Shown in pieces: positions 9,167-15,749 of a stretch of 64,000 bases of DNA. Source of the DNA: Myxococcota bacterium (lineage in GTDB: Bacteria > Myxococcota_C > UBA6777); NCBI GenBank assembly GCA_023150835.1, contig JAKLKB010000010.1, positions 1 through 64,000 on the forward strand, read 5' to 3'. How positions within the stretch are numbered: position 1 is the stretch's first letter; each line of letters starts with the position of its first letter. The notes below the pieces were generated by a model. It searched no databases, was not told the DNA's origin, and was given only the letters and a program-made list of their open reading frames with translations. Position numbers and translations under genes: made by a program.

Positions 9167-9365
9167 TGCCGAAATCATCTTTTGCCCTTTTTCCCGTGTG
9201 TTTGCGTCGAACCAACCAGTTCAAAGGCGGGGCGCAGGGTGACACTCCACAAAAGAAGCCGACCGTGCGAGTTGGATGCTGATTTCTTGCTTGTTGGTGG
9301 GAGGCTTTCTAAGATCAGCGCAACCGAAGGACCGTGTCATCGGTGACCGAAGCAAGGAGAGAGCC

Positions 9366-11363
9366 TTGGAAAAGCGTCGTTATTTGTTGACAGGTGGTGG
9401 AACAGGCGGCCACGTCTATCCAGCGATCGCTGTAGCGGATGAGTTGCGTCGTCGTGAACCCGAAGCTGGGTTTTTGTATGTGGGTGTCAAAGGCAAATCG
9501 GAAGAAAAGATCGTACCGAAGAGGGGTTATGAGATCCGCTTTGTGTCGAGCGAAGGATGGCCGGGAGCGCGTCCGAGCGTGGCGTTGTTGCGCTTTGCGT
9601 GGCGGTTAAGCGTCGGGATCTTGCAATCGATCCTGATCTTACGGCGTTATCAGCCTCATGCGATCATCGCGACGGGTGGGTATGTTTCGGCTCCGATCCT
9701 GTTGGCGTGGGTGTTGTTGCGACGATTGAAACTGACGCAGGCAAGGGCGTTTGTACACGAATCTAACTTGATGCCGGGGCGGCTCAATCTCTTGATCGGT
9801 AAGTTGGCGGATCGGACGGGGGTGAGCTTTGAAGAGAGCCGCCGTTATCTGCCTCAAGCAGAGTTTGTGGGATATCCCGTTCGCAAGGAGATGGTGGGGA
9901 TCACACAAGCAGAAGCGCGGGAGCGTTTGAAGATCCCGCTGGATGCGCGTGTTGTGTTGGCCTTTGGGGGGAGCCAAGGAGCGCGGACGATCAACCGTGC
10001 GCTAATCGACGCATTACCGCGCTTGCTCCAAGATCCGAAGGTTTGGGTCATTCATGGCGTGGGCCGTTTGGATAGCCCGTCGTATCGGGCAGAACACGAC
10101 ACCTTGTCTCGTTTTTCTGCGCTATCGCTTTCCGAAGAACAACGCAAACGTTATTCGATGCACACCTACCTCGATCCGATCGAAGAGTACTATGCTGCGG
10201 CGGATCTGGTCGTCGGTCGGGGCGGGGCGGGGACGTTGACGGAGATGGCGGTGTGTGGGCTTGCGGCGTTGATTATCCCCAAGGCCAACTTGCCGGGAGA
10301 TCATCAAGTGCGCAATGCACGAGCGCTCCAAGACGACGGTGCGGCGGATGTGGTGTATGAGCATGCCCAACGCACCGAAGAAGGCTTGATCGACGTGGTC
10401 AGTGGGGAAGATCTGGCTGTCGCGGTCGAGCGTTTGTTGCAAGATCCCGAACGGCTGGCCAAGATGCGCGAAGCGATCCGTCCGTTTGGAGATGTAAGCG
10501 CGCTCGGTCGGATCGCTGATCGCGTGCAAGAGTTGGCCGCAGGTCGGTTGCTGTCTCTTCCAGAACGCCCGATCCCGCGCAGTGATGGACCTGTGTTTGC
10601 GGAGATGAGCGGTGCGGGCTTGGTGGCGCATCTGAGCCGCAGCGGCTTAAAAGATATCCCACCACGAGAGATCGAATATCTGACGTATCGAGCCGATGGT
10701 TACTTGTCTTCAGAAGCATGGCAGATCCGCAACAACGGTGTCAAACTGGTCGGATTGCTCCAGCTTTCCGAGCATCTTGATTTGATCTTGTATATTCTTC
10801 AAGACAAGACACCCGCACCCCGATGGCAACGTTTGTTGGGGGGAGATCTTCGGCAGGTCGGCTTTATTCGGCGCAATGCCTTCCAAGTCTTGCGCCAACT
10901 CAATGTGTGGAATCTGCAAGTGCGGGAAGTGCTGTTGGCGGGTTTTCGCGATCCGTACTTTGAAGTGCGATCGAGCGCGGCCCAATCCGCGATCTTTTTC
11001 TCCGAACAGATCGGAGAAGATCCCGAGATCTTGGCAGCCTTGAAGGGACTGATGGTGGATCGCGATCTCGAAGTGGCTCGTGAAGGCATCTTGGCGATGG
11101 GTCATTTCGCCAAAGATCCTGCGATCTATCATGCTTTTCGTGCGCTTTACACACATCCCAACTGGCGTTTGCGCGAGGCTGTCGTGATCGCCTTGACGCG
11201 GCTTGTTGAGCGCGCAGTGATCGCGCCCGACGTGATCACTGCGGATCTTGATCAGTTTTTGTTGACGAGTATTGGTTTTGCGCCGCGCTTCCATCTGCGC
11301 GAGAAAATGCTTCATCTCTCCCAAACGCTACAGAAGGCCAAGCATGCTCTACCACCTCAGTGA
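9366..11363 (+). CDS. murG: MurG glycosyltransferase with C-terminal HEAT-like extension
   Basis: A 665-residue protein. Residues about 1-375 are a complete MurG: LLTGGGTGGHVYPA near the N-terminus, HESN, FGGSQGA, and the GGAGTLTEM motif of the sugar-nucleotide site. MurG adds GlcNAc to lipid I to make lipid II on the inner face of the membrane. Residues about 400-665 are extra: helical repeats of HEAT type (e.g. REVLLAGFRDPYFEVRSSA), absent from ordinary MurG (about 360 residues). The TTG at 9366 was chosen because AAGGAG lies 6 nt upstream and family homology begins right after it; the frame is open to 9276. It overlaps mraY by 20 nt. Confidence 0.9.
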   Translation: MEKRRYLLTGGGTGGHVYPAIAVADELRRREPEAGFLYVGVKGKSEEKIVPKRGYEIRFVSSEGWPGARPSVALLRFAWRLSVGILQSILILRRYQPHAIIATGGYVSAPILLAWVLLRRLKLTQARAFVHESNLMPGRLNLLIGKLADRTGVSFEESRRYLPQAEFVGYPVRKEMVGITQAEARERLKIPLDARVVLAFGGSQGARTINRALIDALPRLLQDPKVWVIHGVGRLDSPSYRAEHDTLSRFSALSLSEEQRKRYSMHTYLDPIEEYYAAADLVVGRGGAGTLTEMAVCGLAALIIPKANLPGDHQVRNARALQDDGAADVVYEHAQRTEEGLIDVVSGEDLAVAVERLLQDPERLAKMREAIRPFGDVSALGRIADRVQELAAGRLLSLPERPIPRSDGPVFAEMSGAGLVAHLSRSGLKDIPPREIEYLTYRADGYLSSEAWQIRNNGVKLVGLLQLSEHLDLILYILQDKTPAPRWQRLLGGDLRQVGFIRRNAFQVLRQLNVWNLQVREVLLAGFRDPYFEVRSSAAQSAIFFSEQIGEDPEILAALKGLMVDRDLEVAREGILAMGHFAKDPAIYHAFRALYTHPNWRLREAVVIALTRLVERAVIAPDVITADLDQFLLTSIGFAPRFHLREKMLHLSQTLQKAKHALPPQ

Positions 11364-12726
11364 ATACCTCGTCCAAGCATTTACGGAGGCGGCAGGCCCC
11401 CTGCGCCTCGTGCGCTACAACTCGTTTCGTACCATCGTTGCGATGATTACGTCTTTTTTGATCACGATCCTGATCGGGCGCATGGTGATCAACTTCCTCT
11501 ACCGCCGAAAGATCCGCGATGTGGTGCGGGATTACAGCGTAATGTCGGTGGAAAGCAAAAAAGGCACCCCCACCATGGGCGGGGTCTTGATGATCCTCGC
11601 GATCTCCCTGTCCATCGCGTTGTGGGGCAACTTTCGCAGTCCTTTTTTGTACTACCTGTTGTTTGCGATGATCTGGTTCGCAGCGGTCGGTGGGATCGAT
11701 GATTACTTGAAGATCCGCAACCAAGACAGCGACGCAGGGCTTTCGCGCAAAGCCAAATACCTCGCACAGATCGGCTACGGCGTGATCTTTGGGATCTTGT
11801 TCTTGTACAACGGAACCACACCGCTTCCACATCCCGCCAAAAGCGCCTCTTGTCGCGTCAAGTCGTGGAAAACCAAAGAGTGCGATCGTCCCTGCAAAAC
11901 CAACGCAGAGTGCAAACAAAATACTTGTGGGATCAACGGTGCGATGTGCTTGGAAGGGCGTTGCTCGCCGCCGCCCGTGTGTTCGGGTGAACCCGACGCG
12001 ACGTCTTGTCGCAGCGATGATGCTTGTGTGGCGGCCTGTGGGGTGGGGGCCTATTGTCCGAAGAATTGGGAGTATCCCGTCCCGGGAAACAAAGTGATCG
12101 CCTTTCGTCCTTCCCAGCTTTACGTTCCGTTTTACAAGTACCCTGTGATGGATCTTTCTTGGCTCTACATCTTTGTGATCATCTTTATGATCGTCTATGC
12201 AGCCAACGCCGTCAATTTTGCCGATGGATTGGATGGTTTGGCGACTGGACCCACGATCTTTTCGTTTTTGGTGTTCGGGATCTATGCCTATTTTCTGGGG
12301 AACCTGTTGATTGCACGCTATCTTTGGTATCCCTTTTTGCCGGGTGCAGGTGAGGCCGCGGTGTTTTGTGGGGCGGTCGTGGGGGCGTTGGTGGGATTTT
12401 TGTGGTTCAACACCTACCCTGCGGAGATCTTCATGGGAGACACAGGCTCGATCACCTTGGGCGGTATCTTGGGGACGGTGATGGTGTTGTTAAAACAAGA
12501 GTTCTTGTTTTTTCTGTTGGGTGGTGTTTTCTTGGCCGAGTTGGTTTCGGTGGCGATCCAAGATTGGTTGGGGATACAAGTGTTGGGTCGTCGGATCTTT
12601 TACCGTGCGCCGATCCATCACACGTTCCAACATCGCGGACTCTCCGAACCCAAGATCGTGGTGCGTTTTTGGATCGTCTCGGGGATGTTGGCGTTGTTGG
12701 CACTCGCGGCTCTAAAACTCCGCTAA
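11344..12726 (+). CDS. mraY: MraY phospho-MurNAc-pentapeptide transferase with Cys-rich periplasmic insert
   Basis: A 460-residue polytopic membrane enzyme that makes lipid I from UDP-MurNAc-pentapeptide and undecaprenyl phosphate. Hallmarks: KKGTPTMGG, the DDYLK aspartates, NFADGLDGLA, FMGDTGS and PIHHTFQHRG. Usual MraY is about 360 residues; the surplus is a block at about residues 162-252 with 12 cysteines, placed where the periplasmic loop between helices 4 and 5 lies, just before the conserved LYVPF segment. The spacing of C-x-x-x-C and N-A-E-C motifs resembles the Cys-rich modules of this lineage's lipoproteins. The start overlaps the end of murG, implying coupled translation. Confidence 0.93.
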   Translation: MLYHLSEYLVQAFTEAAGPLRLVRYNSFRTIVAMITSFLITILIGRMVINFLYRRKIRDVVRDYSVMSVESKKGTPTMGGVLMILAISLSIALWGNFRSPFLYYLLFAMIWFAAVGGIDDYLKIRNQDSDAGLSRKAKYLAQIGYGVIFGILFLYNGTTPLPHPAKSASCRVKSWKTKECDRPCKTNAECKQNTCGINGAMCLEGRCSPPPVCSGEPDATSCRSDDACVAACGVGAYCPKNWEYPVPGNKVIAFRPSQLYVPFYKYPVMDLSWLYIFVIIFMIVYAANAVNFADGLDGLATGPTIFSFLVFGIYAYFLGNLLIARYLWYPFLPGAGEAAVFCGAVVGALVGFLWFNTYPAEIFMGDTGSITLGGILGTVMVLLKQEFLFFLLGGVFLAELVSVAIQDWLGIQVLGRRIFYRAPIHHTFQHRGLSEPKIVVRFWIVSGMLALLALAALKLR

Positions 12727-15242: not shown

Positions 15243-15439
15243 ATACGAAATCCGCCTGTAGTGTGATCGTAAAAATGTAGGGGCAGCCCCCTGTGGCTGC
15301 CCAAGAATCGGGCGGTTTGCGAACCGCCCCTACGTCTTATCGTAAAAATGTAGGGGCAGCCCCCTGTGGCTGCCCAAGAATCGGGCGGTTTGCGAACCGT
15401 CCCTACGTCTTATGATCACACCATGAGCAGATTTCGTAT
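15243..15439. mobile_element. MITE-like element, copy 1 (with internal 73-bp duplication)
   Basis: Bounded by imperfect terminal inverted repeats of about 40 bp that begin ATACGAAATC and contain GTGTGATC followed by GTAGGG. Inside are two palindromes, GGGGCAGCC/GGCTGCCC and GGGCGGTTTGCGAACCGCCC. A 73-bp unit is present twice in tandem (15266-15338 and 15339-15411) with one substitution near its end; without the extra unit the element would be 124 bp, like copy 4 (122 bp). It has no coding capacity. Confidence 0.7.
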
Positions 15440-15489: not shown

Positions 15490-15741
15490 GAGCAGAAAGG
15501 CGATGAGCAGGATCGATGATCGGGGTGGGGCGAGCAGAAAGGCGATGAGCAGGATCGATGATCGGGGTGGGGCGAGCAGAAAGGCGATGTGCAGGATCGA
15601 TGATCGGGGTGGGGCGAGCAGAAAGGCGATGAGCAGGATCGATGATCGAGGTGGGGCGAGCAGAAAGGCGATGAGCAGGATCGATGATCGAGGTGGGGCG
15701 AGCAGAAAGGCGATGTGCAGGATCGATGATCGAGGTGGGGC
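15490..15741. repeat. Six tandem 42-bp repeats
   Basis: Six exact-length 42-bp units begin at 15490, 15532, 15574, 15616, 15658 and 15700, with a truncated seventh from 15742. Units differ at only two positions (GAGC or GTGC; CGGGG or CGAGG), and the pattern shows that a trimer of 126 bp was itself duplicated. Because 42 is a multiple of three, frames are open on both strands, but no start signal or homology supports a protein. There are no spacers, so it is not a CRISPR. Confidence 0.9.
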
Positions 15742-15749
15742 GAGCAGGA

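Follow-up and report, generated by a model that had tools for sequence, protein, structure and literature searches.

The window analysed herein, a stretch of 64,000 nucleotides from a Myxococcota bacterium (Myxococcota_C, UBA6777; GenBank assembly GCA_023150835.1, contig JAKLKB010000010.1), carries an mraY gene (11344..12726, + strand) whose product holds a cysteine-rich insert of 91 residues in the loop between the fourth and fifth transmembrane helices (TM4 and TM5). MraY is an essential and near-universal enzyme and an antibiotic target, and it is usually almost unchanging. The present finding is that of a known enzyme with a new extra domain extending over a whole lineage, and no description of a cysteine-rich insert in MraY was found in the open-licence literature. 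Herein, we propose, with belief and doubt evenly balanced, that a working MraY gained once a disulfide-locked periplasmic domain, related to a module of exported proteins, for which we infer a role in docking or shielding. A first-pass annotation of the window, made from the sequence alone, had drawn attention to the insert; its observation was confirmed and its interpretation was partly supported. A natural MraY with a conserved domain on the outer face offers a ready test of whether periplasmic additions steer lipid I synthesis, and this face has recently been proposed to be regulatory (excerpt of PMC10418202). The finding would also exemplify the movement of a group-specific cysteine-rich module from exported proteins into membrane enzymes.

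The MraY enzyme and its cysteine-rich insert

By its family score, conserved residues and predicted fold, the window gene is judged to be an intact-looking MraY, in agreement with the first-pass statement that the catalytic motifs are present. The reading frame, from the ATG at 11344 to a stop codon ending at 12726, encodes 460 residues that score 300.9 bits against TIGR00445 (cut-off 192.05) and 23.3 bits against PF10555 MraY_sig1 (cut-off 20.1). The closest chains by sequence in the PDB (9zno, 8g01, 8tlu and 4j72) are all MraY, and so are the 24 top PDB structural matches to the full-length predicted model (mean pLDDT 80.2, pTM 0.82), with TM-scores by target of 0.84-0.95; the fold resembles that of the solved enzymes 4j72, 8g01 and 9zno at 0.88-0.94. 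In alignments to solved MraY chains, the aspartate pair D119-D120 (11698..11703) and D366 (12439..12441) correspond to D117-D118 and D265 of the Aquifex enzyme, and H425-H426 (12616..12621), the first two residues of the HHH motif, correspond to H324-H325, all on the + strand. The roles of Aquifex D117, D118, D265 and H324 as catalytic residues are given in an excerpt of PMC4790310. A topology legend for Bacillus subtilis (excerpt of PMC5039524) names eight conserved MraY residues, and all eight have identical counterparts here, namely D119, D120, K138, N291, D294, D366, H425 and H426, of which K138, N291 and D294 were matched to the legend by their order along the chain. Each is invariant in our MraY alignment (A1). 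The window enzyme thus shares with known MraY the conserved catalytic residues, a single copy and an adjoining murG, and differs by its insert of 91 residues with 12 cysteines and by HHT instead of HHH, the threonine in place of the third histidine being found also in the insert-less MraYs L006 and L008.

The window's species belongs to a phylum-level group that comprises five species, from three genera of a single family, and each of the five genomes has one MraY locus over the family cut-off. No additional, ordinary MraY was found that could render the insert-bearing enzyme dispensable, and the enzyme must therefore be able to work with the insert in place. The other transferase-4 gene of genome G000 falls under the MraY cut-off and lies in an open reading frame (ORF) of 519 residues with only 5 cysteines.

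The insert covers residues 163-253 (11830..12102, + strand), as delimited by two alignments (A1, and A2 of the five inserts), the model helices and a survey of loops. The first-pass annotation had put it at about 90 residues with 12 cysteines in the periplasmic TM4-TM5 loop, and the coordinates given there for the gene were exact. The cysteines lie at residues 170, 180, 184, 190, 195, 202, 207, 213, 222, 228, 232 and 238, and the remainder of the protein has one (residue 342); the enrichment, 12 of 91 insert residues against 1 of 369 core residues, is significant (Fisher p = 2e-8). The flanking helices in the model are residues 135-154 (TM4) and 272-293 (TM5). Since the topology of MraY is N-out (excerpt of PMC4790310) and the aspartate pair lies at the cytoplasmic end of TM3, the TM4-TM5 loop should face the periplasm, and by homology of topology the insert is assigned to that compartment.

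From the cysteine pattern, the insert is read as two six-cysteine units, one good and one degenerate, all on the + strand. Unit 1 (C180-C207, 11881..11964), recognised by profile comparison and a null test of local scores, has the pattern C-x3-C-x5-C-x4-CG-x5-C-x4-C; its cysteine spacing of 3,5,4,6,4 is kept in all five species and the glycine after the fourth cysteine in four of them, with histidine in the fifth (G004, assembly M3003). Unit 2 (C213-C238, 11980..12057) has five cysteines, and was delimited by their spacings and a weaker second match to the module described below. The first cysteine, C170 (11851..11853), lies outside unit 1 by position and spacing and may complete unit 2. The insert has no family match in Pfam, NCBIfam or PHROGs and no significant match among PDB sequences.

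The statement in the first-pass annotation that ordinary MraY lacks such an insert is borne out by the loop survey, which took in 139 loci (the best 80 of 265, plus 30 and 29) and was reduced to 136 distinct rows by merging identical ones and dropping the incomplete L068. In 130 of the 136 rows, the TM4-TM5 loop has 11-46 residues, with no cysteine in 129 rows and one in a single row. A loop of 107-108 residues with 12 cysteines was found only in the six rows of the group, which represent five species because the window gene and L083 are the same gene. These figures describe a sample biased towards the closest MraYs to the query; of the six patterns behind the best-80 set, two were derived from the insert itself.

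Distribution and origin of the insert

All five species of the group carry the insert in their sole MraY, with 12 cysteines in the same order and at near-identical spacing, and none has lost a cysteine. The carriers include assemblies KLAP109 (L003), M3003 (L004) and S139 (L005) and genome G003; in other words, the insert is conserved in related genomes rather than confined to a single assembly. All genomes are draft assemblies, a circumstance that would favour an artefact of assembly or annotation. However, the same in-frame insert recurs in independent assemblies of five species, whose MraYs are 67-97% identical over the whole protein and free of internal stops, and such an artefact is ruled out for practical purposes, its probability being negligible.

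In a tree of core columns (a single FastTree run, rooted on L010), the five carriers form one clade (support 1.0), and the insert-less L006 and L232 are its sister (support 0.995). In the genomes of these two loci, G060 and G061, the matched pieces lie just 12 and 6 bases apart, and an insert there is therefore ruled out. Because the nearest insert-less MraYs form the sister branch, and because the carriers share the pair of murG with HEAT repeats and mraY with L006, the tree and gene order indicate that the insert was gained once, on the branch leading to the group, in an inherited MraY. Some caution on the sister branch is needed, since G060 has a second MraY and the bin may be mixed. Over the C-terminal half, its two loci, L006 at C386 and another at C267:18207-19289, share 66% and 48% identity with the query, and represent a duplicate or a mixed bin.

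The first-pass annotation had also noted that the insert resembles the disulfide-rich modules of lipoproteins in this genome, and a resemblance to cysteine-rich modules of its exported proteins was supported by profile comparison. Elsewhere in the genome, the profile built from the five inserts (A2) gave weak matches, the best being to an exported-type protein of 595 residues with 78 cysteines (E 0.012). This protein and others contain in tandem a module of 27 residues, C-x3-C-x5-C-x4-CG-x(4-6)-C-x4-C. When the insert profile was compared by hhalign with an alignment of ten such modules (A4; spacing 3-5-4-(4 to 6)-4, with glycine after the fourth cysteine), unit 1 was matched over 27 columns at a probability of 87.1% and E 3.9e-6. 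The likeness to the tandem module of exported proteins (for example, G000:C26, 595 residues, and G000:C231, 1161 residues) lies in the cysteine pattern and this profile match, whereas the MraY units sit in the loop of a membrane enzyme and not in an exported tandem array. In a module search of the whole G000 genome, the MraY unit ranks 25th (E 0.378), a weak match by itself. Among 2000 shuffles that keep the cysteines in place, none reached the real module score for G003 and 20 did for the window; kinship beyond cysteine spacing is well supported for G003 and moderately so for the window. Unit 1 is accordingly classed, on profile evidence, as a relative of the module, and the exported proteins of the group itself appear to be the source of the insert.

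The module is characteristic of this group. At least 22 to 88 matches (E <= 1) were found per genome in all five group genomes, whereas none of 20 other genomes, G060 and G061 included, had one at E <= 0.01, at most 150 candidates per genome being scored. No Pfam family corresponds to it. The NCBIfam family TIGR04201 (Myxo_Cys_RPT) is likewise a cysteine-rich repeat and matches two exported proteins weakly (16.8 and 17.4 bits); it differs in that these scores lie below its cut-off of 25, its repeat has 22 positions, and in L133 its best match (429-446) does not fall within the modules considered here. It has no match in the insert or elsewhere in MraY. Nodule cysteine-rich peptide 13 (7th8) and BmK X (1rji) have cysteine spacings near those of the module profile, and their cysteine-stabilised helix-plus-hairpin recalls the low-confidence models of the insert. 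The matches are not significant (E 0.34 and 0.41), and the likeness is most likely convergence; neither a significant sequence match nor a confident model supports a cysteine-stabilised alpha-beta (CS-alpha-beta) or nodule cysteine-rich peptide fold.

Proposed role of the domain and competing explanations

The sequences show the place, the conservation and the one-time origin of the insert and support the relation of unit 1 to the module; beyond this, we suggest the following course of events. In the ancestor of the group, the TM4-TM5 loop gained a domain of two six-cysteine units. In an oxidising periplasm, the 12 cysteines would likely pair into six structural disulfides, the simplest reading of the set, resulting in a compact and rigid knob just before the beta-hairpin that leads into TM5. 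With less certainty, the knob might serve for docking or as a shield on the outside of MraY, either tethering the enzyme to some protein of the periplasm or envelope, a partner of the kind that the first-pass annotation had also raised, or covering the face at which feedback by flipped lipid II has been proposed. Catalysis by MraY takes place on the cytoplasmic side, and the knob would not be part of it.

A periplasm able to form disulfides is likely in this group, since a VKOR homologue over the cut-off is present in all five genomes. DsbB had no match in any of the five. In the three VKOR proteins read, L263 (G000:C113), L261 and L262, the homologue is fused to a domain that we read from its sequence as DsbA-like, with a CPYC or CPFC motif. 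In the window's species, an ORF of 605 residues joins VKOR to two DsbA-like domains in tandem. The first-pass annotation had suggested that the insert might sense redox state or envelope stress. Reversible disulfides would then turn MraY activity up or down as periplasmic conditions change, and twelve cysteines on the periplasmic side of an enzyme that is essential and opens the lipid-linked steps do invite this idea. However, the cysteine set is even in number, fully conserved over the five species and spaced as in modules that are repeated in tandem up to 20 times per protein; the insert has no C-x2-C pair; and the VKOR homologues are in place throughout the group. Redox sensing has thus become less likely, and we regard a redox or envelope-stress sensor as very improbable.

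A serious rival, somewhat unlikely in our estimation, is that the insert is a near-neutral passenger. It would be a copy of the module that landed in a permissive loop and is held by folding constraint alone, its cysteines being kept because they must pair for it to fold, and it would do nothing beyond leaving MraY undisturbed. The loop does take other additions. Four MraYs of the Bacteroidetes type (L010, L014, L016 and L017) have an insertion at the same place, from which it follows that the loop tolerates additions, and they differ from the present enzyme in that the loop is just 38-46 residues long, free of cysteine and without apparent similarity to the module. Moreover, module-bearing proteins are numerous in the group, and the insert evolves about six times faster than the core relative to the synonymous rate: between the congeners G000 and G001, the insert has a ratio of nonsynonymous to synonymous substitution rates (dN/dS) of 0.142, compared with 0.022 for the core, as measured in this one pair, the synonymous rate being saturated or undefined in the others. 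On the other hand, 0.142 is well under 1, none of the five species, which span three genera, lacks any of the 12 cysteines, and 14 of the 25 invariant insert columns are not cysteines. The insert is under purifying selection that is looser than that on the core.

Three points weigh against a docking or shielding domain derived from the module. First, the predicted models establish neither the fold nor the disulfide pairing of the insert, which falls in blocks with a pLDDT of 35-66 within the full-length model and has a mean of 50.9 when modelled alone; in both of these low-confidence models, unit 1 contains a short helix with a hairpin after it. Second, the residues other than cysteine diverge fast, identity between genera being 31-43% in the insert against 75-79% in the core, and hence no strongly conserved binding patch is evident. 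Such rapid change of the surface argues against one ancient conserved partner patch; it agrees with a partner that evolves alongside the insert or with a steric role of a general kind. Third, 394 of 2000 cysteine-keeping shuffles reach the module score in M3003 (G004), so that kinship beyond cysteine spacing is not supported for this species.

Regulation from outside the cell has also been considered. In an excerpt of PMC10418202, hyperactive MraY variants are mapped to a dimer-interface cavity on the outer side, through which externalised (flipped) lipid II is proposed to inhibit the enzyme. By alignment, Y25, S27, Y326 and K458 of the window MraY correspond to Y21, T23, Y227 and K358 of the Escherichia coli enzyme; the tyrosines and the lysine are kept and serine stands for threonine, and the feedback site therefore looks intact. 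The proposed inhibition route and the retention of these key residues would favour a regulatory lid, a reading that we consider decidedly unlikely. Here the insert, lying over the outside of the MraY dimer, would gate flipped lipid II or sense it and so set the feedback level of lipid I synthesis. A broader possibility, improbable but a little less so, is that the disulfide-locked module on MraY is a lineage-specific receptor which reads an envelope component, either flipped lipid II or a module-bearing exported protein, and allosterically sets lipid I synthesis from across the membrane. If this were true, a whole phylum-level lineage would have its cell-wall precursor synthesis under outside control.

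The idea that proteins of the lipid II pathway commonly carry such cysteine clusters was rejected. The best MurJ match has 3-8 scattered cysteines and no comparable cluster in the three genomes in which the whole ORF was read, the match in G002 being a fragment and the ORF of G003 not being included.

Other module-bearing proteins and the gene neighbourhood

Among the matches listed, 40 module-bearing ORFs were examined, and almost every one of them has either a single hydrophobic segment at its N-terminus or no such segment, as judged by a simple hydropathy window and with some ORFs extended upstream of the true start; this fits export of the module proteins. Two exported-type proteins, L209 (837 residues, 136 cysteines, 19 modules) and L221 (874 residues, 142 cysteines, 20 modules), consist mostly of module, and no Pfam family reaches its cut-off in them. 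An orthologous pair carries one module between two hydrophobic, presumably transmembrane, segments: L230 (a 325-residue ORF at 2871 of G000:C128, + strand) and L208 (a 219-residue ORF at 895 of G003:C82, + strand). MraY is therefore not the sole membrane protein of the group with the module. The pair represents a small membrane protein of no known family with a conserved C-terminal domain.

Upstream of mraY lies murG (9276..11363, + strand; PF03033 and PF04101), whose end overlaps the start of mraY by 20 bases. The murG-mraY pair is found also at L003, L004, L005, L169 and L170 and at the insert-less L006. The window MurG has a C-terminal extension of about 260 residues made of HEAT repeats (PF13646), and the same architecture adjoins mraY at L169 (G003), L004 (M3003) and the insert-less L006. 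Directly downstream of mraY is a gene for a membrane protein of the ceramidase family (PF05875; 12761-13795, + strand), with a 95.5% identical match at L003 and none matched at L004, L005, L169 or L170. Further along the window, tandem repeats occur at 15490-15747 (a 42-base unit repeated 6.1 times, 98% matches) and at 15266-15413 (a 73-base unit repeated twice).

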